From assembly GCA_035317825.1 (NCBI GenBank), contig DATHGB010000011.1:1-64000 (forward strand): a stretch of 64,000 bases of DNA, read 5' to 3'. This stretch comes from Candidatus Saccharimonadales bacterium (GTDB lineage Bacteria; Patescibacteriota; Saccharimonadia; Saccharimonadales; Saccharimonadaceae). The notes below the pieces were generated by a model. It ran no database searches. It saw only the letters and a list, made by a program, of their open reading frames with translations, and was not told the origin of the DNA. The position numbers and the translations under genes are program-made. Positions 21,136 to 37,602 of this stretch are shown piece after piece (within the stretch, counting starts at the first letter, position 1; each line of letters starts with the position of its first letter).

Positions 21136-21206
21136 TACAGTAAGTATAGCAAATTATAACTGCCCAAACTCAACGAGGCTTTTATCGTAGAACTGGTGCT
21201 AAGGTA

Positions 21207-22034: not shown

Positions 22035-22084
22035 ATCAGTACTTTAGCACTAATATAGTGTAGCAACAATAAACATGAACATTA

Positions 22085-22114
22085 TGGTACGGCACTATGT
22101 ATGAAATTAGAACT
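22085..22114 (-). repeat. Array 1 site, copy 1 (outermost)
   Basis: Full 30-base copy: TGGTACGGCACTATG at the left and AATTAGAACT at the right. It contains an ATG that opens a false upstream extension of the DUF84 gene. Confidence 0.8.
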
Positions 22115-22145
22115 GAGATATTATCTATGCCATAATCAAATAACA

Positions 22146-22685
22146 ATGAAAGTTATTATTGGAACGAAGAATCAAAAAAAGATTGATGTCGTCTCTTCGA
22201 TATTCAGAAGCGTATTTGATGTTAAAGATATTACCGTAATGGGTTTTCCTGCAGAATCGAAAGTGCCAGAAGCTCCTCATGATCGTGAGACATATGAAGG
22301 TGCATTTAATCGAGCAAAAGAGTGTTTTTGTCTAGGTTCGGCAGACTATTATGTTGGTATTGAAAGTGGACTTGTCGAAAGATACGACAATATGTTCGAG
22401 GAGGCATGGGCAATTGTTATTTCTAGTGACAAAACGAAGTACATAGGTTATTCAAGTGGATTACTACTTCCTGCCGTAGTAACTGATAGGATGAAAAAAG
22501 GCGAAAAGCATAATGAAATAATGGCCTACTTTGACAAAGAGTTTAATCTTCCGGACGACAATCGGGACACTTGGTCGCGCTATACAGACGGCAATATCAG
22601 CCGACAGGTCAGCTTAGAAGAAGCACTCAGAAATGCCCTCATACAAATTGGGATATCTGAGAAAAACTTATATAATTACAAATAA
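22146..22685 (+). CDS. DUF84-family inosine/xanthosine triphosphatase
   Basis: 179 residues from ATG 22146. A 45-base in-frame extension to 22101 begins inside the 30-bp site and is rejected. The N-terminus MKVIIGTKNQKKIDVVSSIF, the stretch ETYEGAFNRAKEC, and DYYVGIESGLVERYDNMFEE match DUF84 proteins (YjjX type), which hydrolyse ITP and XTP. A second NTP-cleaning enzyme besides the one at 20521. The gene faces right, against the usual direction of array 1. Confidence 0.85.
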   Translation: MKVIIGTKNQKKIDVVSSIFRSVFDVKDITVMGFPAESKVPEAPHDRETYEGAFNRAKECFCLGSADYYVGIESGLVERYDNMFEEAWAIVISSDKTKYIGYSSGLLLPAVVTDRMKKGEKHNEIMAYFDKEFNLPDDNRDTWSRYTDGNISRQVSLEEALRNALIQIGISEKNLYNYK

Positions 22686-22734
22686 TTTCTATGCACCACA
22701 GAAATGGTACAGCACTATGTATGAAATTAGAACT
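22684..22734 (-). repeat. Array 1 site, copy 2, with adjoining hairpin
   Basis: The 30-base core is 22705-22734. To its left, 22684-22704 holds the conserved flank (TTTCTATGC...AGAAA), which on the minus strand folds as a short hairpin before TTATT. Confidence 0.85.
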
Positions 22735-22737
22735 AAA

Positions 22738-23379
22738 CTATCTTTTTCTGAGTAGTAGAGACTGAAAGTGAAGCTGAAGCCCACTTTCAGTCTCGCCTAC
22801 GTCTAAAACATCCGCATTAATTATTTCGAACAAAGGCAACACTGCTTGTTGTAGCTTAGCATCGTCAAGAAACGAAAAAAAGCGAGGGAGGTTCATGCGT
22901 CTAGAATCAGTAAAAACAGTTTCTTTATTGATTCCACCGTAAACACCGTAGAAGAATATGCCATTTGGCGTAAGAGCCTCATGTATGGTTGCTAAAACTT
23001 GTCCCAAGTCTTTCTTTGGAACATGAAGCAATACGTTCATTGAGTATATTGCGTCAAATTGTCGTTGTAGCGTCCCAAGATCGTACAGATCAAGGGTGAC
23101 TGCGTTCAACGCTTTATATTTACAAGTGTCTACCATTTTAGGTGAGATGTCGGTCGCTAGGATATCGAAGCCTCGATCTTGAAAATAGACTGAATCAAGG
23201 CCGGCTCCCGCTCCAATTTCGAGGACAGTTGTTTTATGTTCTGCTTGAATGAAGTCGGCGAAGTTCTTTCGGGTAGCGACTTTCCATGAGTTTCTTGAGT
23301 CGGCATTGTCATTACGTCGCTGGGCATCATTATCGTACGCGGCCACAAGCTCTACTTTAAGGTCTTTTTTATTCATCAT
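22738..23379 (-). CDS. SAM-dependent methyltransferase
   Basis: 213 residues. Motif I is VLEIGAGAGLDSVYFQDRGF, then ILATDISPKMVDTCK, and FDAIYSMNVLLHVPKKDL as motif IV. Likely a small-molecule methyltransferase. TACAAT lies 6 bases before the ATG. It stops 3 bases before the site copy 2, as expected for a cassette gene. Confidence 0.87.
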   Translation of the reverse strand: MMNKKDLKVELVAAYDNDAQRRNDNADSRNSWKVATRKNFADFIQAEHKTTVLEIGAGAGLDSVYFQDRGFDILATDISPKMVDTCKYKALNAVTLDLYDLGTLQRQFDAIYSMNVLLHVPKKDLGQVLATIHEALTPNGIFFYGVYGGINKETVFTDSRRMNLPRFFSFLDDAKLQQAVLPLFEIINADVLDVGETESGLQLHFQSLLLRKR

Positions 23380-23406
23380 TTTTTAATTGTAGCAAATAGA
23401 TATGAA

Positions 23407-23458
23407 TAATTTCTATGCACCATAGAAATAGTACGGCGTATTGTACGAAGTTAGAACT
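23407..23458 (-). repeat. Array 1 site, copy 3, with adjoining hairpin
   Basis: Core 23429-23458 begins TAGTACGGCG and ends GTTAGAACT, with several changes from the consensus. The flank on the left pairs TTTCTATG with CATAGAAA perfectly. Confidence 0.8.
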
Positions 23459-24269
23459 ATAATTTGCTTAAGAACCGGATGACTGTCTCGTTAAAAAACT
23501 GAAAGTTATCTTGGTTTGCGTTATGGCCGGCGTCAGGGATGACGATCAATTCAGCGTTGGGTTCGTAAACTTTCCATCGCTGATTATTTTTCATAACGGT
23601 TCCGGTAGTGTCTTTCTCCCCGTAGGTTATAAGTAGAGGAACGGTAATGTGCATACCGACAATGCCTTTATTTGAAAGAGAATTAGTTACGCTATCCCAT
23701 ATGTTCAGAAAATCTTTCTTTGAGATGTTCTTTACTGTTCGCATAGCGTACACCTGTACATCCTTTTTGATGGCAGTTTTTAAAGCGAGAGCCTTCATGA
23801 AACTTTCATATGGCCATAACTTTATAATCTTTGTCGAGAATTTTAATAACCAAATATCAAATTTAGTGTAAGTAAGCATAATAGGGGAAGCACCAACCGT
23901 AATAATCGCTCTGACGCGATCTGGCTGTAGTCGGTATACTTCTTGAGCTATCATGCCTCCTTCTGATTGTCCTAGGAGTGTTGCTTGGGATGTTTGTAGG
24001 TCGTCCAATATATCGAGGCAATCCTTTGCAAGATCGTTTAAGCTAAAACTTCCTTTCACTGGACGAGATTCGCCATGTCCTCGCGCATCCCACGTGATAA
24101 TGTGATAATCTTCGTTAAGCGCGGTATATTGACTATCAAACATCATATGATCCATTGCTGCTCCATGCAAGAAAAATATGGCAGGCTTGCCCGTATTCTT
24201 ATTTGTCCAGTATTGAATTGTCGTACCGTTCGCTATAAGATTTTTTTGTATTAAGGCTGAATTATCCAT
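23457..24269 (-). CDS. Alpha/beta-fold hydrolase
   Basis: 270 residues from ATG 24269, chosen because TATGAT lies 6 bases before it; a longer frame to 24320 would run through a terminator hairpin. The nucleophile elbow is LLGQSEGGMIAQE (G-x-S-x-G), the oxyanion region is FFLHGAAMDHMM, and the catalytic His is in DAGHNANQDN. Substrate unknown. The stop codon TAG shares two bases with site copy 3. Confidence 0.88.
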   Translation of the reverse strand: MDNSALIQKNLIANGTTIQYWTNKNTGKPAIFFLHGAAMDHMMFDSQYTALNEDYHIITWDARGHGESRPVKGSFSLNDLAKDCLDILDDLQTSQATLLGQSEGGMIAQEVYRLQPDRVRAIITVGASPIMLTYTKFDIWLLKFSTKIIKLWPYESFMKALALKTAIKKDVQVYAMRTVKNISKKDFLNIWDSVTNSLSNKGIVGMHITVPLLITYGEKDTTGTVMKNNQRWKVYEPNAELIVIPDAGHNANQDNFQFFNETVIRFLSKL

Positions 24270-24286
24270 ACGACCATCATACCAAA

Positions 24287-24313
24287 CAAAAAGACTTCTA
24301 CAATGAAGTCCTT
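24287..24313 (-). terminator. Terminator at the front of a cassette
   Basis: Minus strand GACTTC/GAAGTC stem followed by TTTTTG. It lies between site copy 4 and the promoter of the hydrolase gene, so it insulates the gene from upstream transcription. Confidence 0.75.
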
Positions 24314-24329
24314 TAAGCATAAAGAACTA

Positions 24330-24353
24330 TGGTACAGCGTTATATATAGAACT
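24330..24353 (-). repeat. Array 1 site, copy 4 (6-base deletion)
   Basis: TGGTACAGCG at the left and TAGAACT at the right are kept, but six central bases are missing. Confidence 0.65.
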
Positions 24354-24373
24354 AAGTTGAGCAGTTTTGTGTG

Positions 24374-25066
24374 TCAGCTTACTGGAATATCTTTTAATCC
24401 TGCGATTTGAGCTGGCGTTAAGGCAATATTGTACATGCGTACATCATCTATTTGACCATCAAGCACGCCACCACCACCGCCTGCTCCGAGCAGCCAGTTA
24501 TCGGTTGCATCCAAAGTCAGGATTCCGTCCGCTAGGCGTGATCCGGTCTGAATTCCATCCACATACAATGCCATGGTTACCCCATCATATGTTCCAGCTA
24601 AGTGATGCCATCCAGTTGCAAGTACTGTTTGGTTAGGTTGTAGCACGAGGCTGTTTGTGTTGGTCGTTGTGATCACAACCATTGGACCTGCGCTGCTTCC
24701 ACGGGAAGCGCCTAATATGAAACCCTCATCCACATGACCAGGCGCCCATATGCCGACGGCACGCTTATTGGTCTGTCCCCAGTTTGTACGAAAGACCCAT
24801 GCCATAACGGTTATCGCCGTTGTCGGCAACCACCCTGCCGAAGGAACAGAAGCACTGGTAGAGAGGGCGACATTGCTCAAACAGTTACCGGTATGCCCAC
24901 TGGCTGACCATAAGCTGGTGCTCCCGAGTGTCGCCGTATGGCCATTACCCGAGTTATCAATAGTCGTCGTACCACTTCCTTCGGTAAAACTATAGCTTGC
25001 AATGGGGTTGGGATAAGTAATAGCAGTACCCTTGACCATTAACGCCGAACGAACAGAACCGAGCAT
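24374..25066 (-). CDS. LamG-domain lectin-like protein
   Basis: 230 residues behind an AGGAG ribosome site. The sequence is a concanavalin-A-like/LamG jelly roll: IASYSFTEGSGTTTIDNSGN near the start, TVLATGWHHLAGTYDGVTMA and LYVDGIQTGSRLADGILTLD later, ending IDDVRMYNIALTPAQIAGL. No signal peptide is evident, so export is uncertain. It may bind sugars or be a detached domain of a larger surface protein. Confidence 0.83.
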   Translation of the reverse strand: MLGSVRSALMVKGTAITYPNPIASYSFTEGSGTTTIDNSGNGHTATLGSTSLWSASGHTGNCLSNVALSTSASVPSAGWLPTTAITVMAWVFRTNWGQTNKRAVGIWAPGHVDEGFILGASRGSSAGPMVVITTTNTNSLVLQPNQTVLATGWHHLAGTYDGVTMALYVDGIQTGSRLADGILTLDATDNWLLGAGGGGGVLDGQIDDVRMYNIALTPAQIAGLKDIPVS

Positions 25067-25157
25067 GCATTCTCCTAAATATTAATAATAGCCGTTAGCT
25101 TTATAGTAAGCTTTCGCCAGGAGACGAGTCAAGTTTTTAGATGCTCCATGGTCTGTA

Positions 25158-25562
25158 TTATTGGTTATTTTTAACTACATCGTGAACCATATGCATGTAC
25201 GTATCGTTAGCTCCAAGAGCTTGTTTCAAGAATTCTTCACGGTCTACCCAAGCAAAAGATGCGTGTTCCCAACTAATTGTTACGGTTGGACGTTCTGTCG
25301 TGTGAGCTACGTAAAGGCTATACTCTGTCCCATGTGTAGAATATTCGCTGCCGGTATATGTCGGTTTGACATCCGTGGGATTGAGCGATATGTTAGCTTC
25401 TTCTATTACCTCACGGAGTGCGGCTTCGAGTGCTTCCTCGCCTTTTTCAATTGTTCCTCCAGGCAAATCCGGGTCATTTAAGAAAGTTGGATGATTAGCC
25501 CTTTCCATTAAGAGATAATAGCCGTCATTATCAATAATTAATACTTTTGCAACTTGTTTCAT
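25158..25562 (-). CDS. Nudix hydrolase
   Basis: 134 residues. Nudix box GGTIEKGEEALEAALREVIE followed by EANI, complete. Substrate unknown. TATAGT lies 6 bases before the ATG, so a leaderless mRNA is likely. No clear site separates it from the LamG gene. Confidence 0.9.
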   Translation of the reverse strand: MKQVAKVLIIDNDGYYLLMERANHPTFLNDPDLPGGTIEKGEEALEAALREVIEEANISLNPTDVKPTYTGSEYSTHGTEYSLYVAHTTERPTVTISWEHASFAWVDREEFLKQALGANDTYMHMVHDVVKNNQ

Positions 25563-25584
25563 ATTGTGACTATAACAGGAAAAA

Positions 25585-25640
25585 ATAATTTCTATATATC
25601 AAATAAATAGATGCCGTAATCTCGTCGTAAAGATCATAGG
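25585..25640 (-). repeat. Probable relic of an array 1 site
   Basis: AATAATTTCTAT matches the left flank of copies 2, 3 and 13, followed by GATGCCGTAATC where TGGTACGGCACT is expected. The rest of the core is not recognisable. Confidence 0.3.
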
Positions 25641-25673
25641 TGAGTATAGTTCTGTTTGTTATAATTATGACCA

Positions 25674-26918
25674 ATGGGTGACGAATTAAATTCTTTACAA
25701 CCCAAGCGCGGTAGAATACTACTCGTTGCTCTTGTCGTGATTGCAATTGTTGCCGGCCTATCGGTAACGGCTTGGTTTGTCTGGTTTAATCCCCAAAAGC
25801 AATCTCCTTCAACCACGCCAATTACCACACTGAATACCCCACTGATCCAGCCAGAACTAATAACAACAGGATTAAAGTCTCCAACGAGTATTTTAGCAAC
25901 GCCTGATTCGATAGATTCACGATTATTTATAGTCGAACAAGATGGTCTTATACGTATTATTGATAAGTCGAGAAAACTAAACGAAAAACCGTTTCTCGAT
26001 ATATCTTCTAAGATTCTTCAAGGAGGTGAAATGGGACTCCTTGGAATGGCATTTCATCCTCCGTATAAGCAGAACGGATATTTCTATATTAACTATATTG
26101 ATAAAAACCAAAACACTGTCATTGCTCGGTACGCTGTGACGCCCAACGCGGATACCGCCGATCCTACGAGCGAAAAAATCCTCTTCACACTCAAGCAACC
26201 CTACACGAATCATAATGGCGGTGCTCTTGTATTTGGGCCTGATAGCTACTTATATATAGCACTGGGTGATGGCGGCAGCGCGGGAGATCCAGAAAATCGT
26301 GCCCAAAACAAGGCCGAGTATTTCGGTAAGATTTTACGAATAGACGTTGATCACGGTGATCCTTATGTAATTCCGCCTAATAATCCATTTGTTAACGAAG
26401 CGAATAGTAAGCCGGAAATTTGGGCATACGGCCTACGCAATCCTTGGCGAATCAGTTTTGATAAAGAGACGGGTGATCTCTACATTGCGGATGTTGGACA
26501 AGGCGAATTGGAGGAAGTAAACATTCAAAAATCATCCAGTAAAGGCGGCGAGAATTATGGCTGGCGTTGCTACGAAGGTAAACAGGCGTACAAATTAGAC
26601 GGCTGTGGAGACAGTAGTAAGTATGTCATGCCGGTATTGGAATATGATCACAAAGGAGACCGCTGTTCTATTACCGGAGGGTACGTCTATCGCGGAGAGA
26701 GGTATCCAGCATTAAGCGGCAAGTATTTCTATGGTGATTACTGCAACGGTCAGTTATTCTATGCTGGAAATGAAAATAACACTTGGACAAATGTTCTTGC
26801 CGCCCAAACTCCTTATTCGATCAGCACCTTTGGGCAAGATAGCAACGGCGAGCTTTACTTTGCCGATTTTAAAACGGGTAGTATTTACCATATACAAGAC
26901 AGAGCGAATGAGCAGTGA
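25674..26918 (+). CDS. Membrane-anchored PQQ-type sugar dehydrogenase
   Basis: 414 residues. One N-terminal membrane helix (ILLVALVVIAIVAGLSVTAW) is followed by a six-bladed propeller of the glucose/sorbosone dehydrogenase family: GEMGLLGMAFHPPYKQNGYF, HNGGALVFGPDSYLYIALGD, GLRNPWRISFD and DVGQGELEEVN. Related enzymes oxidise sugars with PQQ. No PQQ genes are in the window, so the cofactor might come from outside or the protein may serve another role. The gene reads against the usual direction of the array. Confidence 0.87.
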   Translation: MGDELNSLQPKRGRILLVALVVIAIVAGLSVTAWFVWFNPQKQSPSTTPITTLNTPLIQPELITTGLKSPTSILATPDSIDSRLFIVEQDGLIRIIDKSRKLNEKPFLDISSKILQGGEMGLLGMAFHPPYKQNGYFYINYIDKNQNTVIARYAVTPNADTADPTSEKILFTLKQPYTNHNGGALVFGPDSYLYIALGDGGSAGDPENRAQNKAEYFGKILRIDVDHGDPYVIPPNNPFVNEANSKPEIWAYGLRNPWRISFDKETGDLYIADVGQGELEEVNIQKSSSKGGENYGWRCYEGKQAYKLDGCGDSSKYVMPVLEYDHKGDRCSITGGYVYRGERYPALSGKYFYGDYCNGQLFYAGNENNTWTNVLAAQTPYSISTFGQDSNGELYFADFKTGSIYHIQDRANEQ

Positions 26919-27030
26919 TAGCAAACTTTTACGTCTTTGGTTAGCATCAAAAGCAGTTTCTAGCCCCCTATAGTCTGCACATTAGTGAGATTTCTGATGT
27001 GTAACTTGCTTAAAAGGATAGGTTTGAATA

Positions 27031-27060
27031 TGGCACAGCTTGTCGTACGAAATTAGAACG
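27031..27060 (-). repeat. Array 1 site, copy 5
   Basis: 30 bases beginning TGGCACAGCT and ending AATTAGAACG. Confidence 0.7.
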
Positions 27061-27085
27061 ACCTTGAATACGGGATGAGAGCGTA

Positions 27086-27952
27086 TTATTTGTGAAATTC
27101 TTCTTGATAGAGTAGGCGAGCTTTATCGGAAATTCGTTGTGCACCTTCTCGTTCTCCTGTGGCTTGCTTTCCGAACGCTTCGCCGATACTTCCGAGTAAT
27201 CTTGTACGTATGATGAGCTTTTGTTCAGGTAACACCATGCCCATGTCACGTGCTGCTAGTGCCGCCATTACTCTTTTTAATGAAAATGTGTCTGGCCGCA
27301 TAAGAGCCACTTTTACTATGTCGTGGGTGTCGTCCGGCATCTGATTAATTATTTGTCCGAAGCCTTTATACCAAGGTAAGTCCGCGTCTCCGCCTGTCGG
27401 AAAGATGGTAACGGAGCCGGTCTGCGCTATTTCAGAAGCATGTGTAAGCGCGGCGCTATTGACGACTCTTAACGTCTCTCTAGGAAGTTTTAAAGCCTGA
27501 GGATGACGGTTACGTCGCATGAAATCACGAGGGTGTCGCAGTGACGGTTTATTCTCTGCAGCGTAGCTGCCTGGGATAACAGGTATGACCAATTCTTTTC
27601 CAGCATCTCCCGAAGCCTGCATTAATCGCCCGGCAAATGAGGTGGGCATCGCAAGTACATATGAAGCATTGCGGTCTGATAGAGACATGGCGGCCTGTAC
27701 TAGTAGAGGCTCTATTCTTTGTCGATGATCACTGGCAATTATAAGACCTTCCCCTTCTTCGGGTAAGTCGTCTCCTTCGATCTCTATTTCGATTCCGGCT
27801 GAGCTAAATGTATCAATGGTTGCACTTGCAAAACCAGTTTCCACTGCTAATGCGCCCATTCTATGGACAAACCTCGGAACTATGGGTAAGGAGAGGTGTG
27901 GAATGTCAAATGATTGCTGCAGCTTACTATGATTTTCAAGTGAACGTGGCAT
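27086..27952 (-). CDS. PlsC-like acyltransferase, divergent
   Basis: 288 residues. LIIASDHRQRIEPLLVQAAM resembles the H-x4-D block of glycerolipid acyltransferases, with Glu in place of Asp, and SVTIFPTGGDADLPWYKGFG resembles the later F-P-E-G block with T in place of E. The fold is probably PlsC-like, but activity is doubtful because of these changes. It stops 25 bases before site copy 5. Confidence 0.6.
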   Translation of the reverse strand: MPRSLENHSKLQQSFDIPHLSLPIVPRFVHRMGALAVETGFASATIDTFSSAGIEIEIEGDDLPEEGEGLIIASDHRQRIEPLLVQAAMSLSDRNASYVLAMPTSFAGRLMQASGDAGKELVIPVIPGSYAAENKPSLRHPRDFMRRNRHPQALKLPRETLRVVNSAALTHASEIAQTGSVTIFPTGGDADLPWYKGFGQIINQMPDDTHDIVKVALMRPDTFSLKRVMAALAARDMGMVLPEQKLIIRTRLLGSIGEAFGKQATGEREGAQRISDKARLLYQEEFHK

Positions 27953-28019
27953 AATTTATGTTATAATAGCATAATATGTTTAAATATGCAAATTTAATGA
28001 TATGTCAATTACCATAGCA

Positions 28020-28101
28020 AACAAGTACGAGCTGCTAATTCTAACTTGGCCTATGCGATATCAGGACTAAAATTACCGATCAAACTAATGAGTTCGAGGT
28101 T
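28020..28101 (-). repeat. Long flank repeat next to copy 6
   Basis: About 80 bases that resemble the sequence adjoining copies 9 and 14 and the tRNA-Arg itself. On the minus strand it carries a GGCCAA-GTTAGAA motif. The likeness is partial. Confidence 0.4.
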
Positions 28102-28131
28102 TGGTACTGCGCTTTGTACGAAATTAGAACT
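28102..28131 (-). repeat. Array 1 site, copy 6
   Basis: 30 bases beginning TGGTACTGCG and ending AATTAGAACT. Confidence 0.8.
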
Positions 28132-28207
28132 AAACTAAATATTATCGTATGATTTACCTAACTAGGTTGCTCTAAAAATATTTCTGCTCTCCAGTTTAGT
28201 TTGCTGA

Positions 28208-28699
28208 TTAATACCTTACTCTCAAGATTAGAAAACGAAATAAGAGAAACAGTATAAGTAAAATTGCACCAACTATAACAATAAACCGGTCCAGCTTTTC
28301 ATTATCAATGTACTTTTTGCTGAAGTCGTATAGTGCCAGCCCAAAAAGACCACCAAGAGTATTCGTGATTATATCCGTTATATCTGTTGTTCCAATCGCG
28401 AGTACGAATTGAATTACCTCGGCAGCAAGACTAAAAACAAATACAAACGTGAGCTTTCGCCAAAAATTAGTTTGTTTGAGATTAACGCTTAAAAGCAGGC
28501 CAAAAGGAATAAAAACGACAAAGTTGTCAATCAACTCTCTCGAATTGTCTCCTGAAGCAGCTACAAATGGAATCAAGTTAAGACTTCTCGTTTGATGATC
28601 TAATAATACCGAGGGTAAATCAAATGAAAATTTGAACAAAACTAACCATAGTAGGGTGAACAGGTATAAGACAAATACTGTTTTGGATAATGATTTCAC
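28208..28699 (-). CDS. VanZ-like membrane protein
   Basis: 163 residues with about five membrane helices. SLNLIPFVAASGDNSRELID, NFVVFIPFGLLLSVN and DITDIITNTLGGLFGLALYD are the three VanZ motifs. VanZ proteins confer low-level glycopeptide resistance in some bacteria; the normal role is unknown. The start is GTG 28699. Confidence 0.88.
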   Translation of the reverse strand: MKSLSKTVFVLYLFTLLWLVLFKFSFDLPSVLLDHQTRSLNLIPFVAASGDNSRELIDNFVVFIPFGLLLSVNLKQTNFWRKLTFVFVFSLAAEVIQFVLAIGTTDITDIITNTLGGLFGLALYDFSKKYIDNEKLDRFIVIVGAILLILFLLFRFLILRVRY

Positions 28700-28763
28700 T
28701 TGCGATAGCTCTAGATCTTTTGGCGACTATAGCATGGTTTCGCTGTGAATGGGCTGAAAAGAA

Positions 28764-28793
28764 CAAAAAGCCATTATGCACGAAATTAGAACC
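28764..28793 (-). repeat. Array 1 site, copy 7 (left half degraded)
   Basis: The right half (TATGCACGAAATTAGAACC) is intact; the TGGTAC end is lost. Confidence 0.6.
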
Positions 28794-28818
28794 GAGCTGG
28801 TGAATTTGAGAGTTTAAG

Positions 28819-29379
28819 TTATCGTAAGTAGGCTGCGCTTAAAATAATAATGAAAAAGCCCCAGTAAAAAATCATCTGATAAAGGAGACTATGTTCTCGG
28901 GTGCTACGTACGAAGAAATAAAGGAATATGAATAGCAGTGATAGGCCAAGGTAAACAAGTGCCGAATATTTTAAGACTACAGAGACGGCTGGGGATAGTG
29001 CTATAAATACGGTAATCGGTATAATCATAGCCCCGGCAATAAATGCGAGTACGTTATGAATACGGCTCAATTTGCCAGGCCTATCAGGAATCCATCCAAT
29101 AAGAATTTGGCATATAGCAGCCACACCAATACACCAACCGAATAAAGGAGGTAGTTGTAGCGTGGGCATAAACCACCAAAAAAAGAATGGGTAGATGAAT
29201 AGTGCCGTAACCGTCGCCCCGATCCCCATAGTGATGTATGCACTGGGATGTGCGGCAGCATGAAGACTTAACGTCATTGATTTATCGCCACGCCACTTAT
29301 AGAGCATCACGATAACGGCTATCGTGCCAAAAAGTAGACCATATAGCCCAAAGTAGTGCAGATCTTCATTCGGTTGCAT
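28819..29379 (-). CDS. Six-helix membrane protein
   Basis: 186 residues, about six membrane segments, no catalytic motif seen and no family recognised. TATGAT lies 6 bases before the ATG. It forms one cassette between copies 8 and 7. Confidence 0.72.
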   Translation of the reverse strand: MQPNEDLHYFGLYGLLFGTIAVIVMLYKWRGDKSMTLSLHAAAHPSAYITMGIGATVTALFIYPFFFWWFMPTLQLPPLFGWCIGVAAICQILIGWIPDRPGKLSRIHNVLAFIAGAMIIPITVFIALSPAVSVVLKYSALVYLGLSLLFIFLYFFVRSTREHSLLYQMIFYWGFFIIILSAAYLR

Positions 29380-29396
29380 GACCTAATCATACCAAA

Positions 29397-29420
29397 CAAA
29401 AAAGACTTCCGAAGAAGTCC
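29397..29420 (-). terminator. Terminator at the front of a cassette
   Basis: Minus strand GACTTC-TTCG-GAAGTC followed by TTTTTTG, closely alike to the terminator at 24287-24313 and in the same position relative to a site. Confidence 0.75.
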
Positions 29421-29438
29421 ATCCATAATGTCTATGCT

Positions 29439-29468
29439 CGGTACGGCTCAAGTCAGCTATACTGAAGT
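29439..29468 (-). repeat. Array 1 site, copy 8 (degraded)
   Basis: Only the left end CGGTACGGCT is kept, preceded by a TCTATGC flank; the right half no longer matches. Confidence 0.4.
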
Positions 29469-29470
29469 AC

Positions 29471-29989
29471 ATGGAAAAGTTTGTAGATGTACTAAGGGTT
29501 GGTGGAAAAACAAATTCACTTGGCAGGGCGAATGAGGTAATAAGTGCTGTTTTGGAGGATAAGTCTTTATTGGAAGAGTTGTACGAATCTCTATTTGATG
29601 ACGACGCTTGGGTGCGAATGCGAGCAGCGGATTGTCTTGAGAAGATTTGTAGGGCTCATCCGGATTGGATTGAATCCTACATAGATAGAATGCTAGATGG
29701 CTTGACGACGAGTAGTCAGCCGTCTATCCAATGGCACTTAGCACAGATATTCGCAGAGGTAAATTTAATGGACAACCAAAAGAAGCGGGCTGTTGTCTGG
29801 TTGAAAGGGCTACTCTCGACGAAAGATGTCGATTGGATTGTTTCCGCCAATACAATGAAAACCTTAGTCCAATTTCATCATGACGGACTAGTTATGAAAG
29901 ATGAACTCGTACCATTGTTTGGACTTCAGCAACAGCATAAATCAAATACGGTACGAAAAAAAGCATCACAATTTCTACAGGATTTGTAG
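29471..29989 (+). CDS. HEAT-repeat-like protein
   Basis: 172 residues, all helical. DDDAWVRMRAADCLEKICRA and later NTVRKKASQFLQDL have the pattern of HEAT/armadillo repeats, which bind proteins or nucleic acids. No enzyme motif. TATACT lies 7 bases before the ATG. It faces right, against the array direction. Confidence 0.72.
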   Translation: MEKFVDVLRVGGKTNSLGRANEVISAVLEDKSLLEELYESLFDDDAWVRMRAADCLEKICRAHPDWIESYIDRMLDGLTTSSQPSIQWHLAQIFAEVNLMDNQKKRAVVWLKGLLSTKDVDWIVSANTMKTLVQFHHDGLVMKDELVPLFGLQQQHKSNTVRKKASQFLQDL

Positions 29990-29999
29990 ATTTTCCAAC

Positions 30000-30075
30000 A
30001 AAAGCCAAACAACTACGTCGGAATCAATAAATTGGCCTATAAAGTTCTAACTAAACCATATTTATTATCAAGATT
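30000..30075 (-). repeat. Long flank repeat next to copy 9
   Basis: Contains AATTGGCCTATAAAGTTCTA and ATTATCAAGATT, alike to the regions at 33964-34040 and 35510-35585. Confidence 0.45.
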
Positions 30076-30105
30076 CGGTACGGCGCTATGTATGAAATTA
30101 GAACC
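30076..30105 (-). repeat. Array 1 site, copy 9
   Basis: 30 bases beginning CGGTACGGCG and ending AATTAGAACC. A chance ORF (30032-30241) runs across it. Confidence 0.8.
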
Positions 30106-30124
30106 AATCTTGCGGCATATTACG

Positions 30125-30988
30125 CTATGTACCCAAGAGCATAATACTCACGATGGATATGTAGATAAAAAATATAAAACGCGCCAAATTACCATTGCGC
30201 TTGCGAATAGCACTCACTACTCTCACTTCTTTTGGCCATAACAAAAATAAATTTAGAAACACTGCGGCTATAGAGACGTAAAAAAGAATACCTCTTCCAT
30301 TGCTAATGTGGATTCCTACTATGATCGCTAGATACGCTAGACAGGTCAATGTAATTATTAATTTATGGGTGATACCCGGGCCGTACTGGACGAGCAATGT
30401 TCTTTTATTGTGCAAGGAATCTCCTTTTATATCCTTGAAATCTTTTAGAGATACAATACCTGCTGAGAAAAGAAAGGAAGCTACTAATAATAGGCATCCC
30501 TGTGCGCTCAGGGTTTCATTTGCGATAATATATCCTAATAACAAAGGCATGATGCCATAGCAAATACCCAGTGTGATAAGTGCGAGTGCTCCCCGACCCT
30601 TAAAATTAGCAGGCCCGGAATAAAGCCAACCCAAGAGAAAATACATGCTTAACCATAATAATGCTAAATTACTAAGTAGTGCTGCCGTGATACACCCTAT
30701 AATCATTAAGCCGAGTAAAAGATCTCGTAGATCCTTTCGGGAGACCCGACTATCTGCAAGAGGAATATCTTTCCTCCGATTTGCTGTATCGATCTTGTAG
30801 TCAGATAGATCATTATAAATTGTTACAAATCCGTAACTGGTCACAATAAGTAGTGAGCATAATATAAATGCCGCTACATTCGTGACATTATATGCGACAA
30901 GAATAGAACTGCATAATAGCCAAGGTAATAAAGTGGAAGATATTCTTAGTGACTGAGCGAGAGAATGTGTTCGACTGATCTGCTGCAT
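30125..30988 (-). CDS. UbiA-family prenyltransferase
   Basis: 287 residues, eight to nine membrane helices. The two Asp-rich motifs are IYNDLSDYKIDTANRRKD and SLKDFKDIKGDSLHNKRT. Such enzymes attach a polyprenyl chain to an aromatic or other acceptor. The acceptor is unknown. The ATG follows directly after the stop of the gene at 30989-31360, so they are one operon in one cassette. Confidence 0.88.
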   Translation of the reverse strand: MQQISRTHSLAQSLRISSTLLPWLLCSSILVAYNVTNVAAFILCSLLIVTSYGFVTIYNDLSDYKIDTANRRKDIPLADSRVSRKDLRDLLLGLMIIGCITAALLSNLALLWLSMYFLLGWLYSGPANFKGRGALALITLGICYGIMPLLLGYIIANETLSAQGCLLLVASFLFSAGIVSLKDFKDIKGDSLHNKRTLLVQYGPGITHKLIITLTCLAYLAIIVGIHISNGRGILFYVSIAAVFLNLFLLWPKEVRVVSAIRKRNGNLARFIFFIYISIVSIMLLGT

Positions 30989-31360
30989 CTACGCGGCGAA
31001 CTCTTTTTCTTCTGCCGAGACTGTTAATTGAAAAATGTATGCTGAATAAATGACGCTGAGTGTCAGGAGAACTATGGCTATTGATCTTGCGGAAGCTTTT
31101 TTAAGGCCAAGATAGATGCCAATCCAAAGAATGAGTAGTAAGGTAATTGGCCAGTAGAAAGGTATGAGCAGCGCAGGCAGAGTGATTACTATAGAGGGCT
31201 CATGTGACGCCCATCCTGAGGGGTTAAATAGACTAGCAACGAACCAGCTTATGAACGGCAAAATAATTGCTGCAATTGCTAGAGTGCCCTCTTTTGGCAT
31301 TTTATTAGGCTGATCACGAATAGGACTTACTTTTATGTTGGCTGATTTTTTTGTTGTCAT
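30989..31360 (-). CDS. Small membrane protein paired with UbiA-like gene
   Basis: 123 residues with three membrane helices and a Lys-rich N-terminus. No family recognised. TATTAT lies 6 bases before the ATG. It is translated just before the UbiA gene (TAG-ATG junction) and may assist it. Confidence 0.72.
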   Translation of the reverse strand: MTTKKSANIKVSPIRDQPNKMPKEGTLAIAAIILPFISWFVASLFNPSGWASHEPSIVITLPALLIPFYWPITLLLILWIGIYLGLKKASARSIAIVLLTLSVIYSAYIFQLTVSAEEKEFAA

Positions 31361-31455
31361 GAATATATAATAGCTTATTACAGCTAATGTCGAACAGAAT
31401 GAAAAGTTGATCTTGTTTGTTTAATCCTGTGCCTAATTTTTATACACCACGGAAA

Positions 31456-31485
31456 TGGTACGGTACTATGTATGAAATTAGAACC
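31456..31485 (-). repeat. Array 1 site, copy 10
   Basis: 30 bases beginning TGGTACGGTA and ending AATTAGAACC, with the hairpin flank (TATACACCACGGAAA) on the left. Confidence 0.82.
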
Positions 31486-31515
31486 GAGTTAGCGAACGCT
31501 AATATATCAATTCTC

Positions 31516-31956
31516 TCAATGCAAATACTCCAAGGGAGGTTGGATCCAACCTGACAGTAGCAAAATAACAATCAAAATAGTATACAGTACCGACCAAACT
31601 AGACTCGATTTTAGCTCTTTTTTAAAATTGATGGGCTTCGAGGAACGAATAGCGTGTTTCATTCCATACTGTAGCAACACCAAGCCTAAAATGTTTGTAA
31701 GTAAGTATCCGACTACAAAAGCTACATTAAACCATACCGGCTGCATCCAAGTAACTGTCCCTGCAAACAGATAGGCTAGGGGTATATTGATTAAAAGATC
31801 ATTCCACCAGGATATAGGCGAAAGCAAAAAACCAATTATAGCTAACGCTCCACCGCCGGCTCGCTTAACGATACGACGAGCCCGTTTTTTATCAGGTATC
31901 ACTGACGGTATTGATTCAATAGGACTTAAAGCATTCTCGGTATCAGTATCTGGCAT
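31516..31956 (-). CDS. Four-helix membrane protein
   Basis: 146 residues with a charged N-terminus (DKKRARRIVKRAGGG) and about four membrane helices. No family recognised. TACACT lies 6 bases before the ATG. Single gene of its cassette. Confidence 0.72.
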   Translation of the reverse strand: MPDTDTENALSPIESIPSVIPDKKRARRIVKRAGGGALAIIGFLLSPISWWNDLLINIPLAYLFAGTVTWMQPVWFNVAFVVGYLLTNILGLVLLQYGMKHAIRSSKPINFKKELKSSLVWSVLYTILIVILLLSGWIQPPLEYLH

Positions 31957-32000
31957 ATCTTAAGTGTACCATCGCGTAGGGGTATCATGTGCAACAGATT

Positions 32001-32030
32001 TGTTTTGACGTTATGTACGAAATTAGAGCT
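32001..32030 (-). repeat. Array 1 site, copy 11 (left end degraded)
   Basis: The right half TTATGTACGAAATTAGAGCT is kept; the left end has lost TGGTAC. Confidence 0.6.
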
Positions 32031-32050
32031 AAACTGATTGTATGTAACGA

Positions 32051-32596
32051 CTAGTATTGTTGTATTGACTGAGCAAGCTCAACGAGTTTATCGTTCGCAC
32101 CTGCAGGATAAATACTACATTTACGATTGTTTTGATAGATATAACGTAGGCCGTCTTTGGTAGGTGTAATTTCGCTAATGTATTTTTCAGCCGTGTGCAC
32201 ATCTTTTGAAGTACTTATCTGAACCATTTTGTCACACGAAGGATCGTCATTGCTTTTCTGGTTACCAACAACATCGGTAGTGCTTAAGTATAAGTTCGCT
32301 TTGAAGTTGGGTGATGTAGAATATTGTAGCTTACGACTTATATCGGTTAAGGGAATGAAGATGCGGAATTCAGGAATATACACTCTATTCTCGCTTACGC
32401 TAATAATTGGTGTCATATATCGTTTGGATTCACTTTCATTTATTAATCGTGCTAAAGATGAAGACGTACTATGCTCATTGTTTGTGTGAAACTTTACGAT
32501 ATAACCTATAGTTATAATCTGTATCGAAAGTAGGACTATAAAAGCAAACCATAACTTATTGATCTTTGGCTTTTTAGTGGACGATTTTTTAACCAT
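32051..32596 (-). CDS. Single-pass membrane protein
   Basis: 181 residues. A basic start (MVKKSSTKKPKINK) is followed by one membrane helix (LWFAFIVLLSIQIITIGYIV), then an outward domain of about 140 residues with two Cys (DPSCDK and NRKCSI) that may form a disulfide. No family recognised. TATTAT lies 6 bases before the ATG. Confidence 0.72.
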   Translation of the reverse strand: MVKKSSTKKPKINKLWFAFIVLLSIQIITIGYIVKFHTNNEHSTSSSLARLINESESKRYMTPIISVSENRVYIPEFRIFIPLTDISRKLQYSTSPNFKANLYLSTTDVVGNQKSNDDPSCDKMVQISTSKDVHTAEKYISEITPTKDGLRYIYQNNRKCSIYPAGANDKLVELAQSIQQY

Positions 32597-32650
32597 GAGT
32601 ATATAATAACAAAATATCTCCTAAGCGGAAGTATTTGATGTGTGCGGATA

Positions 32651-32671
32651 TAGTACCGTGTTAGAAAATTG
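32651..32671 (-). repeat. Possible relic of an array 1 site
   Basis: TAGTACCGTG-TTAGAAAATT keeps the left end and a shifted TTAGAA. Weak match. Confidence 0.3.
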
Positions 32672-32722
32672 GATCGCATCAGCTAGTTAAGGTTACGAGT
32701 ATGAGACTGGTATACTATGATA

Positions 32723-33064
32723 ATGGATGTTATAACTCTTGTTACGGTGTTTGTTTTTGTCGGTGTTATTCAATTATCTGCACGATTTAAGTTTCATCCT
32801 GTTTTGAGTAGTAGCCTGGTGGTTTTTTCACCTTTCTTACTCACACTACTGCTTAGATCGATATTCTTCAGCCAAGATGGATTTTCTTTATACAATCTTT
32901 TATCGTGGAGAGATATTGTCGTTGTTATTTTGCAGTTTCTTGCATCATTACTGCTATTTTATAAGATACGATATGAAGAAGACTCACTGGCTGCTTGGTT
33001 TGGATGGTCGCTTGCAGGTATGATAATTATCTTTTTGGCAATTCCATTTTTAGTACGAGGTTAG
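32723..33064 (+). CDS. Small four-helix membrane protein
   Basis: 113 residues from ATG 32723, chosen over ATG 32717 because TATACT lies 6 bases before it. Four hydrophobic segments; no family recognised. It reads against the array direction. Confidence 0.68.
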   Translation: MDVITLVTVFVFVGVIQLSARFKFHPVLSSSLVVFSPFLLTLLLRSIFFSQDGFSLYNLLSWRDIVVVILQFLASLLLFYKIRYEEDSLAAWFGWSLAGMIIIFLAIPFLVRG

Positions 33065-33073
33065 TATGAAAAT

Positions 33074-33124
33074 AATTTCTATGCACCACAGAAATAGTAC
33101 AGCACTATGTATGAAATTAGAACT
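33074..33124 (-). repeat. Array 1 site, copy 13, with hairpin flank
   Basis: Core 33095-33124 begins TAGTACAGCA and ends AATTAGAACT. The flank 33074-33094 is nearly identical to that of copies 2 and 15. Confidence 0.85.
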
Positions 33125-33134
33125 GCGCTACGAC

Positions 33135-33539
33135 TTAAATTAACGTACCGGTTCTGCCACACTGAGAGCAGAGGGCATATTTTAAGATAGAATCCTCGTC
33201 GGTAATGTAGTCAGTGTATATGTCGCTAAGACGATCATCTTCACGTTCGTTTCGTAAGATACTTTCATATAAAGCCGGGTCAGTATCTCGTAATTTGTCG
33301 TAGTCAATTATTTCTCTTCCATGAACCTCAGTAAGGTATTTTTCATAATTTGCTCCGGCATGCCGGCGACCGACAATTTGAAAAGTTGACGAATCGTCGC
33401 TTGCCGATTCTGTGTGTGGCTGCGAATTGTGATTGTCGGTTTTATTAAAAAGCTTTTGTGCGGTCTTTTGAATCATTTCATTAGCGGCAAACGAAGCTTT
33501 ACAATTACTACATACGATTTGACCCGGTTCCCTATTCAT
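33135..33539 (-). CDS. Protein with a split CxxC pair
   Basis: 134 residues from ATG 33539, which overlaps the stop of the upstream PPC gene (33532). One CSNC near the N-terminus and one CSQC near the C-terminus could form a single zinc ribbon that closes the chain on itself. The middle is acidic and charged. No family recognised. Confidence 0.7.
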   Translation of the reverse strand: MNREPGQIVCSNCKASFAANEMIQKTAQKLFNKTDNHNSQPHTESASDDSSTFQIVGRRHAGANYEKYLTEVHGREIIDYDKLRDTDPALYESILRNEREDDRLSDIYTDYITDEDSILKYALCSQCGRTGTLI

Positions 33540-33945
33540 CAGGCCCACTCACAACCAACTCGGTGAAGCCGGTTTCCTTGTCCATTTCACGCTTTATCTC
33601 TACATCGTTATTAATACCGATAACAATCTCTGCTGTCGGATGGATAATCGTACCTTCTTTAAGATGTCCGCCATGAACGTTACCTTCATTGTCGGAAAAT
33701 GATATATGCAGGTGAGTGCCATTTGTAGAGACAGTGCCTACAAGTGAAACGATTTCAAAGTCATCTTTGAATGTCCTTATGTCTTGCGCATCCGGCTTAG
33801 CTCCGGCCATGCGTACAGTTGCCTGCTCAAGACCTCCTACGCATGTAACGATAAAGCCAGCTTTGATGGTGTTCTGTTTGATTACTTCTTCGATTGAGCT
33901 TTTAAGATCAGCGCCAGGCTTTAGCCGGAAGATTATTGTTTTCAT
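33532..33945 (-). CDS. PPC/DUF296-domain protein
   Basis: 137 residues. TIIFRLKPGADLKSSIEEVI, AGFIVTCVGGLEQATVRMAG, and GTHLHISFSDNEGNVHGGHL match the PPC (DUF296) domain, whose G-x-H-x-H part can bind metal. In bacteria these stand-alone proteins form trimers of unknown role. TATGAT lies 6 bases before the ATG. Confidence 0.87.
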   Translation of the reverse strand: MKTIIFRLKPGADLKSSIEEVIKQNTIKAGFIVTCVGGLEQATVRMAGAKPDAQDIRTFKDDFEIVSLVGTVSTNGTHLHISFSDNEGNVHGGHLKEGTIIHPTAEIVIGINNDVEIKREMDKETGFTELVVSGPDE

Positions 33946-33963
33946 ATATCCATCATAACAAAC

Positions 33964-34040
33964 AAAGGTTAGAACTGATTAACAGGTAGGGCGATAAAGT
34001 GGTCTACAAGTTCGAACTAAATCGTATCTGTATCGAGATT
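33964..34040 (-). repeat. Long flank repeat next to copy 14
   Basis: Shares its order of motifs (TTAGAAC, TGGTCTA, GTTCGAA, GAGATT) with 35507-35585, the sequence directly after tRNA-Arg(TCT). This suggests the tRNA-proximal DNA was copied along with the site. Confidence 0.6.
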
Positions 34041-34070
34041 TGGTACAGCACTATGTATGAAATTAGAACT
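34041..34070 (-). repeat. Array 1 site, copy 14
   Basis: Consensus 30-base copy. The upstream gene (34063-34848) uses TAA inside this site as its stop codon. Confidence 0.85.
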
Positions 34071-34848
34071 CAATTGGCTTAAGCTCTGCACCAATAGCAA
34101 GGTGATCTGATCCATTAAGCTCAACAAACTGATTCTCGGCTTTATAAAATCTTGGCTGATAGAGGATATGATCTAGCTGCTCATCGTATCCGATTACTGT
34201 GCTTTGGGCTTGAACAGCCTCGGCAAGTAGATTATCAGTGAAGAGTTCGGGAAATGCTATGTCAAGCTTAATATTTTTATTATTAAAGTCCCCCGTGATG
34301 ATGGTAGAAGCTGCTTCATTTTTGCCAAGGAGTATTTTAATAAGCTGTTGACGTACGTCACTAAATTCGGGGTCATCTAGACGACGATTGAAGTGATGAA
34401 AAGGGAAGTATGAAAAATTTATGATTGATATAATTTTATTATCTATCTGTAGATTAACTCGCTGTCCACCTTTATCTAACATTTTCCAGTGTTCGCCGTT
34501 TGGCCGTACAACTTCGATACCTGGGCTAGGGATTATCAATTCTTCCTGATCGATGATAGGATAGCGACTAATAATTGCCATCCCCATCCGCTTGTTTGTA
34601 TCGAGATGTGAAGAATCGAGGGCAAGTGATGAATGATAAGGCATGTCAAGTTCTTTTGCCATATACTCAACCATCTGACTATTCGTCTTATCTTCAAGAT
34701 GAACTTCACTCAAGCTAATAATATCGGCGTCTTTTTCGCGAAAATATTCTATATAATTTTCTAGCGAGACTTTACTAAAAAGCATCTCACCATACGTTTG
34801 CCCAGCAAATATAAAACCACCACTTATATTAGAATAAATAATCTTCAT
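34063..34848 (-). CDS. Endonuclease/exonuclease/phosphatase-fold protein
   Basis: 261 residues from ATG 34848, chosen because TATACT lies 6 bases before it; the longer frame to 34878 is unlikely. ADIISLSEVHLED, KRMGMAIISRYPIID, TIITGDFNNKN, and ELNGSDHLAIGAEL are the catalytic blocks of the EEP family. It may cut nucleic acid or a phospholipid head group. The last codons and stop (EF-TAA) come from the 30-bp site. Confidence 0.85.
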   Translation of the reverse strand: MKIIYSNISGGFIFAGQTYGEMLFSKVSLENYIEYFREKDADIISLSEVHLEDKTNSQMVEYMAKELDMPYHSSLALDSSHLDTNKRMGMAIISRYPIIDQEELIIPSPGIEVVRPNGEHWKMLDKGGQRVNLQIDNKIISIINFSYFPFHHFNRRLDDPEFSDVRQQLIKILLGKNEAASTIITGDFNNKNIKLDIAFPELFTDNLLAEAVQAQSTVIGYDEQLDHILYQPRFYKAENQFVELNGSDHLAIGAELKPIEF

Positions 34849-34891
34849 TGTATAAGTATAGCAGTAGAGAGTCGTCAAATAATCAATGCTT

Positions 34892-34942
34892 AATTTCTAT
34901 GCACCACAGAAATGGTACAGCACGATGTATGAAATTAGAACT
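34892..34942 (-). repeat. Array 1 site, copy 15 (nearest to the tRNA)
   Basis: Core 34913-34942 differs from the consensus by one base (CACGATG). The hairpin flank lies on the left. Confidence 0.85.
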
Positions 34943-35489
34943 AAATTAATTCAAACTCGATAGCTTTAATAACGGTCTGGTAGTAAACCTCACCATGAGG
35001 CACAAATTCCTCCGTATGATAGTTTGTCTTAAATTCGTCTAAGGGTAGCCATTTTAGAGAAGCCACTTCCTCAGTCTGTAATGCAAATGATACGTCATTA
35101 GATAATTTTAATGCGTAGAGCCATTGGAGTTCATTCTCAATTGATCCATTCTCAGCAGTTAAGTGTGCTCTATGAATAGAGAATAATTTCAGTGCAGAGA
35201 GTTCTATGTCTAGGTTAATCTCTTCTTTTGTTTCTCGTAGTGCGGCAGTTAGCGGCTCTTCACCAAGATCAATATGCCCAGCAGCTGATATGTCATATCT
35301 ATTTGGCCATGTTCTTTTAGAGGCGGCTCTTTTCTGAACAAGAATTTCAGGATTATTTTCATTATTACGCCAAATCCATACATGAGAGGCTCCATGTAAT
35401 AGCCCTTTACTGAAAATATCTGTCTTATTCGCTCCTCTATCCTCAAGAGGCAGACCCTGTTCACTGTATAGCTGACATAATTCTTCCAT
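34941..35489 (-). CDS. Nudix hydrolase, isopentenyl-diphosphate isomerase-like
   Basis: 182 residues. The N-terminal region (LPLEDRGANKTDIFSKGLLH) and VQKRAASKRTWPNRYDISAA followed by the Nudix box GHIDLGEEPLTAALRETKEE resemble IDI-like Nudix proteins such as YfcD. The IDI catalytic Cys is absent, so it is probably a hydrolase. The stop codon TAG overlaps site copy 15. TATGAT lies 6 bases before the ATG. Confidence 0.87.
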   Translation of the reverse strand: MEELCQLYSEQGLPLEDRGANKTDIFSKGLLHGASHVWIWRNNENNPEILVQKRAASKRTWPNRYDISAAGHIDLGEEPLTAALRETKEEINLDIELSALKLFSIHRAHLTAENGSIENELQWLYALKLSNDVSFALQTEEVASLKWLPLDEFKTNYHTEEFVPHGEVYYQTVIKAIEFELI

Positions 35490-35506
35490 TCCTTAATCAT
35501 AGCAAA

Positions 35507-35585
35507 TAAAAGTTAGAACCAGCCAACAGATAAGTAGATAAAATGGTCTAAAGGTTCGAATTAAATCACATCTATTAACGAGATT
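35507..35585 (-). repeat. Flank adjoining the 3' end of tRNA-Arg(TCT)
   Basis: Carries TTAGAAC, TGGTCTA, GTTCGAA and GAGATT in the same order as 33964-34040. Confidence 0.55.
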
Positions 35586-35661
35586 TGGTACCCCGGGTTG
35601 GAATCGAACCAACGACCAAAAGCTTAGAAGTCTCTTGCTCTATCCACTGAGCTACCGGGGC
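35586..35661 (-). tRNA. tRNA-Arg (TCT)
   Basis: Acceptor GCCCCGG with CCGGGGT, anticodon loop CTTCTAA (TCT), T-loop TTCGATT, encoded CCA at 35586-35588. The stem base pair next to the anticodon loop is mismatched. It is the anchor of array 1. Confidence 0.96.
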
Positions 35662-37555: not shown

Positions 37556-37572
37556 AGCATAAGCATAATGAA

Positions 37573-37602
37573 GCAGACTTTTTCGGAAGTCTGTTTTTTT
37601 AT
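37573..37602 (+). terminator. Terminator after tRNA-His
   Basis: CAGACTT/AAGTCTG stem with TTTTTTT. Confidence 0.88.

Follow-up and report, generated by a model that had tools for sequence, protein, structure and literature searches.

What has brought a long row of unrelated genes to the 3′ end of a single tRNA gene in a small bacterial genome? The question is raised by a stretch of 64,000 nucleotides, referred to below as the window (positions 1 to 64000 of contig C11), from the draft genome of a Candidatus Saccharimonadales bacterium (1.116 Mb in 30 contigs). In this stretch, a half-site of 29 bases (GTTCTAATTTCATACATAGTGCTGTACCA) is repeated on the minus strand between positions 22085 and 35586, behind the gene for tRNA-Arg(TCT) (35586 to 35661, minus strand, detected by ARAGORN). 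Sequence comparison makes it probable that this region, designated array 1, consists of non-autonomous, mostly one-gene cassettes that a large serine recombinase (LSR), provided in trans by an integrative element, successively inserted at the 3′ end of the tRNA gene. The comparison relied on draft assemblies throughout, largely metagenome-assembled where named, and the genus is represented by one genome in the collection.

The half-sites, designated P half-sites, were identified by their similarity to the 29-mer. Eight were found at three mismatches or fewer, compared to none in all 100 shuffled sequences. These are located at 34913 to 34941 (GTTCTAATTTCATACATCGTGCTGTACCA), 34041 to 34069 (consensus), 33095 to 33123 (CCA changed to CTA), 31456 to 31484, 30076 to 30104 (CCA changed to CCG), 28102 to 28130, 22705 to 22733 (consensus), and 22085 to 22113. 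Five additional half-sites are degenerate, at 32001 to 32029 (GCTCTAATTTCGTACATAACGTCAAAACA), 28764 to 28792 (tRNA-side end lost), 27031 to 27059, 24330 to 24352 (6-base deletion), and 23429 to 23457. The total of thirteen recognizable sites, including variants with a deletion or with one half missing, agrees with the initial annotation of this DNA. That annotation had also listed five full copies, all of which are present, but only the copies at 22705 and 34041 are identical, and those at 22085, 31456, and 34913 each carry one or two base differences from this pair. All thirteen half-sites share the minus strand, lie 3′ of tRNA-Arg(TCT), and point away from it, and the intact ones terminate in GTACCA, the last bases of the tRNA. 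Relics are more numerous than the two reported previously, since at least four were found, near 25584 to 25607, 29436 to 29446, 32650, and 21175 to 21195. The last of these (CCAGTTCTACGATAAAAGCC, minus strand) marks the true left end of the recognizable array. Thus, array 1 ends at the tRNA gene as proposed but extends approximately 0.9 kb to the left of 22085, because the gene at 21207 to 22034 has a half-site at either end in a related genome (UBA6025, locus L157). The similarity to that locus covers window positions 21206 to 22093, and the relic occupies the far end here in place of the intact site found there.

The P half-sites delimit units, all on the minus strand, of unrelated content. 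From the tRNA gene outward, the unfused units contain a Nudix gene (34941 to 35489; unit 34913 to 35585), an EEP (endonuclease/exonuclease/phosphatase) gene (34063 to 34878; unit 34041 to 34912), a gene for a PCC-domain protein followed by an open reading frame (ORF) of 137 codons (33532 to 33945 and 33135 to 33548; unit 33095 to 34040), a gene for a 146-residue protein (31516 to 31956; unit 31456 to 32000), an ORF of 123 codons with a UbiA prenyltransferase gene (30125 to 30988; unit 30076 to 31455), a VanZ gene (28208 to 28699; unit 28102 to 28773), a gene for a 288-residue protein (27086 to 27952; unit 27031 to 28101), an alpha/beta hydrolase gene (23457 to 24320; unit 23429 to 24329), a methyltransferase gene (22738 to 23379; unit 22705 to 23428), a reversed DUF84/NTPase_I-T gene (22101 to 22685, plus strand; unit 22085 to 22704), and, beyond the range first delimited, a gene for a membrane protein of 275 residues (21207 to 22034; unit 21175 to 22084). 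Three other segments are fused units with relic junctions. These comprise a reversed 115-residue gene (32717 to 33064, plus strand) and a 181-residue gene (32051 to 32596) separated by the relic near 32650 (segment 32001 to 33094); a reversed HEAT gene (29471 to 29989, plus strand) and a 186-residue gene (28819 to 29379) on either side of the relic at 29436 to 29446 (segment 28774 to 30075); and a reversed GSDH gene (25674 to 26918, plus strand), a second Nudix gene (25158 to 25562), and a LamG gene (24374 to 25066) with the relic at 25584 to 25607 (segment 24330 to 27030).

Pfam searches assigned products to the Nudix, EEP, UbiA, VanZ, abhydrolase, and LamG families, in agreement with the identities read initially from the translations, and further products to the DUF84, methyltransferase, GSDH, HEAT, and PCC families. 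The four reversed genes noticed at that stage begin at 22101, 25674, 29471, and 32717. Forward genes are directed away from the tRNA, and their stop codons are located 22 to 106 bases ahead of the CCA end, which corresponds to −7 to +77 relative to the half-site; the upper bound is as previously given, and the lower bound is −7 instead of 0. The GC content is 40% inside the array and 44% outside. Neither an LSR gene nor a tyrosine integrase gene is present within array 1, and the NhaA gene beside the tRNA is not conserved in the family. A TATGAT-like box is located a few bases 5′ of the ATG of some cassette genes (in 28819 to 29447, 33532 to 33960, and 34941 to 35510 of the window), which suggests that some cassettes may carry their own promoters.

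The sequences immediately past each CCA, designated right halves, belong to a few types. Type A is long (ATCTCG...GTTCGAAC...GTTCTAACC) and is found in the tRNA-adjoining Nudix cassette and after the half-sites at 34041 and 30076. Type B (TTCTRTGGTGCATAGAAATTA), at 22705, contributes to sites with an imperfect inverted repeat (TAATTTC/GAAATTA). Type C, at 24330, combines AGTGCTTATGTTTAAA with a terminator-like hairpin, and type D (CTCGAATTCATTA) follows the half-site at 28102. Type A right halves appear to resemble the 3′-terminal sequence of LSR genes (CTGTT...GTTCTAACC).

The position of one motif relates the half-sites to the tRNA genes. Counted from the CCA end, the GTT motif of the T-loop begins at −23 in the tRNA genes of the window (−24 for tRNA-Pro as delineated by ARAGORN, for a pattern starting one base earlier), whereas the GTT motif of the half-sites associated with tRNA-Arg(TCT), tRNA-His, and tRNA-Arg(TCG) starts at −28. 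The motif of the Arg(TCT) half-sites, GTTCTAA, is itself T-loop-like. The zinc-ribbon motifs of serine integrases are located 5 bp closer to the center in attB than in attP (Rutherford et al., PMC3783163). As judged from the sequences, the 5-bp outward shift in the half-sites is this published attP-versus-attB signature of LSRs, and GTTC is presumably the zinc-ribbon motif of the recombinase. The rule was derived from Arg(TCT), His, and Arg(TCG), leaving Pro, Phe, Gln, and Glu independent of the derivation. Downstream same-strand copies of the last 6 bases of the tRNA, searched for the 33 tRNA genes of this genome, displayed GTTY at −28 in 6 of 13 cases (Arg-TCG, Pro, Phe, Gln, Glu, and His), compared to 0 of 15 for the opposite-strand control. 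By our own arithmetic, the chance of obtaining four among the approximately 10 remaining copies is ~1e-6 for a per-position chance of ~0.009. The rule also fits LSR loci in other genomes, namely, at tRNA-Gly(TCC) (twice), tRNA-Trp (three times), tRNA-Arg(GCG/TCG), and tRNA-Ala.

LSR genes are common in the family (PF07508 matched in 136 of 198 genomes) and lie at tRNA ends. In genome G099, a frameshift divides an LSR gene whose end coincides with the CCA of tRNA-Arg(TCT), with the first P half-site 9.4 kb beyond; resolvase, recombinase, and zinc-ribbon Pfam domains are all present across its two ORFs. In G028 (locus L051, 9713 to 16468), an LSR remnant is found at tRNA-Arg(TCT) with the next half-site 6.7 kb further on, and the interval contains Dcm-like DNA methylase, Vsr-like, and ATPase-like genes, as read from the sequences, which are likely to be defense cargo. 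For the G099 LSR and its relatives, a tRNA gene is located within ~4 kb at 28 of 30 loci and mostly overlaps the LSR stop codon. The stricter requirement of a convergent tRNA gene at 400 bases or less was satisfied at 33 of 57 loci over both LSR sets, some of the failures being tRNA genes located just outside the allowed overlap. Across the phylum, LSR relatives were detected in 173 of 380 genomes, and tRNA genes were present at many of 29 additional loci that were retrieved. A search of the PDB with the LSR returned resolvase-domain chains as the sole matches. The evidence points to LSRs as the enzymes behind the arrays. As a separate observation, an LSR element of ~7,964 bp with an identical far-end half-site is located at tRNA-Arg(TCG) in one genome and at tRNA-Arg(GCG) in two (L168, L169, and L170).

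The genome studied here contains its own autonomous element with matching sites, at tRNA-Gln(CTG), whereas those at tRNA-Arg(TCT) are found in relatives only. On contig C9, the order downstream of tRNA-Gln(CTG) is a HAD-hydrolase cassette, which terminates in GTTCTATTCCAGGACCTTAACCCCAGCCA, the only LSR gene of the genome, and, 23.7 kb later, GTTCTATTCCAGAACCTTCTCCCCAGCCA. These two sequences are near-identical P halves and are the sole fits to the pattern in 34 kb. The LSR element spans 23.7 kb (L121 8034 to C9:67777, in L060), and its LSR has the resolvase, recombinase, and zinc-ribbon Pfam domains. The location of the HAD cassette between the tRNA gene and the element is compatible with the addition of new units next to the tRNA. 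The interior of the element carries TraG-like, coupling-protein-like, pilin, and M23 genes, and the whole is possibly a conjugative element of Saccharibacteria. Genes of this kind are perhaps common in this group, and the content of the element is therefore less certain than its ends.

A mechanism that would account for these features can be proposed. Each cassette would be bounded by a right half on its tRNA side and, at the opposite end, by a P half-site. In binding the 3′ end of the tRNA gene, the LSR would use the T-loop and the acceptor end; in binding the cassette site, it would use a T-loop mimic located 5 bp further out. Its zinc-ribbon domain would read the motif at −23 in the tRNA gene (attB half) and at −28 in the cassette (attP half). 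The 5-bp offset would distinguish attP from attB. Strand exchange near the shared final 6 to 9 bases, close to CCA, would insert the cassette, and exchange at this position would restore the tRNA. Since the right halves are variable and shared between arrays, both the tRNA site and the cassette site should remain usable in the products, and such reusable sites would allow stacking, exchange of cargo, and integron-like growth. The sequences show the arrangement of the sites, the offset rule, ends that match the tRNA, LSR genes located at tRNA ends together with these half-sites at the far end, and cassettes that are shared or relocated. LSR catalysis, the helper acting in trans, the circular intermediates, and the reuse of product sites are inferred components of this scheme.

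Comparison with related genomes provided information on the possible movement of the cassettes. A 107-base site query matched 13 genomes from 9 genera among 198 sampled family genomes (counts including the present genome). Wherever the fetched stretch held the tRNA gene, the sites were 3′ of tRNA-Arg(TCT) and in the same direction; two further sites are located on contig C25 of the present genome. These two Arg(TCT)-type half-sites delimit a cassette at 8919 to 9687 of locus L059 (G000:C25:77001-96000), a 19-kb stretch in which no tRNA gene was found, for which a secondary insertion site and a translocation are candidate readings. The initial interpretation of the region as a library of mobile genes, with ends falling exactly at the CCA, was supported, as the arrays of other genera start at the same CCA with mostly different genes, and as individual cassettes recur in L157 and L047 with homology stopping at the sites. 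None of the genomes compared displayed this gene set in unchanged order but devoid of sites. The tRNA-proximal right half varies by genome and, in most, is of a type found inside arrays, as expected if the newest cassette adjoins the tRNA. Few cassettes are common to related genera. The 115-residue gene has a match in G104, with sites or site relics flanking the gene in both genomes; VanZ matches a gene of G022 located past the sites found there; the Nudix gene at 25158 matches a gene near the G028 array; and the HEAT gene is behind tRNA-Arg(TCT) here and behind tRNA-Gly(GCC) in G022. The 186-residue cassette displays 78% nucleotide identity with its G022 counterpart (protein identity of 86.6%, versus 85.5% for Xer). 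A scan of 84,980 species for the half-site pattern listed 7 stretches, and the named genomes with this half-site bear the label Candidatus Saccharibacteria, the one exception being "bacterium UBA6025"; the scan required exact matches, and absence elsewhere therefore means little for diverged sites. The Arg half-site was not found in a scan of IMG/VR.

Several observations weigh against insertion of cassettes by an LSR acting in trans. The genome lacks an LSR for tRNA-Arg(TCT), its single LSR being at tRNA-Gln, and array 1 may thus be orphaned. An intact Arg(TCT) LSR was not seen in the clade, as the G099 copy is frameshifted and the G028 copy is a remnant. The P half was not found at several LSR loci within the stretch searched. 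The −28 position has exceptions, at −29 for Asp and at −27/−28 for a second LSR group, to which the weaker motif of the Arg(CCG) site may be added. Some shared cassettes are no more alike than the core gene Xer and could have been inherited. Neither a circular form, an empty allele, nor a strain variant was seen in these draft assemblies with one genome of the genus. Finally, recombination of attP with attL is not a reaction of textbook LSRs, and tandem stacking would therefore require right halves to be non-discriminating, an unproven property. A precedent for serine recombination in the absence of a directionality factor is TndX of Tn4451 (PMC5704250). Part of these observations would be accommodated if the arrays were ancient and immobile, inherited relics of repeated element insertion and decay in which no single-gene cassette was ever self-moving. 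The missing Arg(TCT) LSR, the degeneracy of several sites, and the match of the 186-residue cassette to a sister genus at core-gene identity fit such a history, which we nonetheless regard as unlikely in view of the persistence of near-identical half-sites, the scarcity of cassettes common to related genera, the presence of cargo behind different tRNAs, and the cassette with near-identical half-sites between tRNA-Gln and the LSR element.

Enzymes of the tyrosine recombinase family were also considered. The 3′ ends of tRNA genes are classic targets of tyrosine integrases, and one such integrase adjoins tRNA-Arg(TCT) in G104, as would be the case for islands of the phage, tycheposon, or integrative and conjugative element (ICE) type that later lost their integrase. 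Xer is, however, the single tyrosine recombinase of this genome and of several other array-bearing genomes, the identity shared by site and tRNA is limited to 6 to 10 bases instead of a tRNA-length repeat, and neither the −23/−28 offset nor the location of LSR genes at tRNA ends would be explained; we consider this origin improbable. A divergent integron, with attC-like hairpin sites moved by an IntI-like enzyme, would provide the array layout, the single gene per unit, the stop codon near the site, and the inverted repeat of type B. This explanation is very improbable, as no IntI-like gene is present in this genome, the junction is at the tRNA CCA and not at the G/TT of the site, each half-site matches its own tRNA, and GTTCTAA departs by eye from the attC core, GTTRRRY. 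Movement by the host Xer at dif-like sites, by analogy with pdif modules and integrative mobile elements exploiting Xer (IMEX), has an equally slim chance of being correct. Although Xer is the enzyme at hand and part of the site is loosely dif-like by eye, Xer would have no need for half-sites specific to the tRNA of each array, the T-loop offset and the LSR adjacency would not be explained, and the dif site of the genome itself was not located. Insertion by an LSR thus remains our preferred explanation.

How does array 1 compare to known systems? Recombinase-less elements that retain att sites, such as cis-mobilizable elements (CIMEs), stack at the end of a gene when a related element integrates, a process of accretion described for CIMEs, ICEs, and integrative and mobilizable elements (IMEs), and the tRNA-targeting IMEs seen in the table of that review have tyrosine integrases, whereas serine-recombinase IMEs are described as disrupting dispensable genes (PMC5704250). 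The units of array 1 are likewise flanked by att-like sites in tandem at one target. They differ in that the enzyme is presumably an LSR, that units are mostly single genes of 0.5 to 1.4 kb, that at least 15 are present in one array, and that several tRNA genes are used in one genome. Cassettes of the staphylococcal cassette chromosome (SCC) type, moved by the Ccr large serine recombinases at rlmH, stack at one chromosomal 3′ end, and some units lack a recombinase. Array 1 is similar in its presumably LSR-driven stacking at one 3′ end, which includes recombinase-less units, but it targets tRNA genes, via the T-loop, instead of rlmH, its units are far smaller, and tRNA anchors are many. Accretion of the CIME and SCC type is the closest likeness, the layout being integron-like. 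In integrons, promiscuous single-gene cassettes form a linear array that grows from a single fixed site, with the 3′ end of the gene beside the recombination site. Array 1 shares the linear single-gene cassettes and the fixed site but has neither IntI nor an attI/attC core, its fixed site is a tRNA gene, and its enzyme is presumably a serine recombinase. The tycheposons of Prochlorococcus are tRNA-anchored cargo islands in streamlined genomes, as is array 1, but they rely on tyrosine recombinases and are larger.

Recombinase-less accretion and LSR-driven cassettes are thus already known, and the arrays at tRNA genes would be the novel part. Our searches of the accessible literature, the coverage of which is incomplete, did not reveal any account of LSR-read tRNA genes carrying arrays of one-gene cassettes, although a prior description is possible. 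The cassette stacks suggest a form of gene capture working like an integron with tRNA genes as docking points. It is about as likely as not that this extends to a phylum-wide system in Patescibacteria, parallel to integrons and based on serine recombinases. The T-loop of every tRNA would then act as an attB motif, any tRNA gene could be the platform of a reusable array, and single genes would circulate between arrays and species. Saccharibacteria have genomes of ~1 Mb and live on other bacteria, yet they gain genes; a tRNA-anchored cassette system, if true, would account for the location of the variable genes. GTTY at −28 combined with the tRNA tail provides a sequence rule for finding such cassettes, the 5-bp offset of the T-loop motif lends itself to a natural test of attP/attB discrimination by serine integrases, and the data suggest that the recombinases are possibly retargetable among tRNA genes.

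Other tRNA genes of the window are associated with similar units. Array 2 (37556 to 40711, plus strand) resembles array 1, is anchored at tRNA-His(GTG) (37479 to 37555, plus strand), and contains Nudix, 214-residue, 130-residue, and DprA-like genes with the half-site GTTCGAACATCCCTCACTATCTCGCCCCA; P half-sites of the form GTTCGAAC... are located at 38178, 39266, 39782, 40087, and 40683. In G139 (L053), a homolog of its gene at 38593 to 39237 is located downstream of tRNA-Arg(TCT), and in G007 (L052), one lies in the interval from tRNA-Gly to tRNA-Arg. Single cassettes are present at tRNA-Arg(TCG) (50526 to 51182, plus strand; 168-residue gene at 50571 to 51077 on the minus strand, P half-site at 51154 to 51182) and at tRNA-Pro(TGG) (910 to 1894, minus strand; 161-residue gene at 1177 to 1662, P half-site at 910 to 938). 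An AATTAT/ATTATT-like motif, picked after looking, is located within 15 bases of the CCA in 10 of the 33 tRNA genes of this genome (control, 1.6%; L184 to L213). It is possibly a right-half motif, in which case more tRNA genes may carry cassettes. Local repeats D6 to D16 of the window were judged to be chance matches. Two 196-base copies (79% alike) are located ~1 kb apart at 44618 to 45840, with a 98-base part found again at 51613, and resemble the starts of pilin-type genes.

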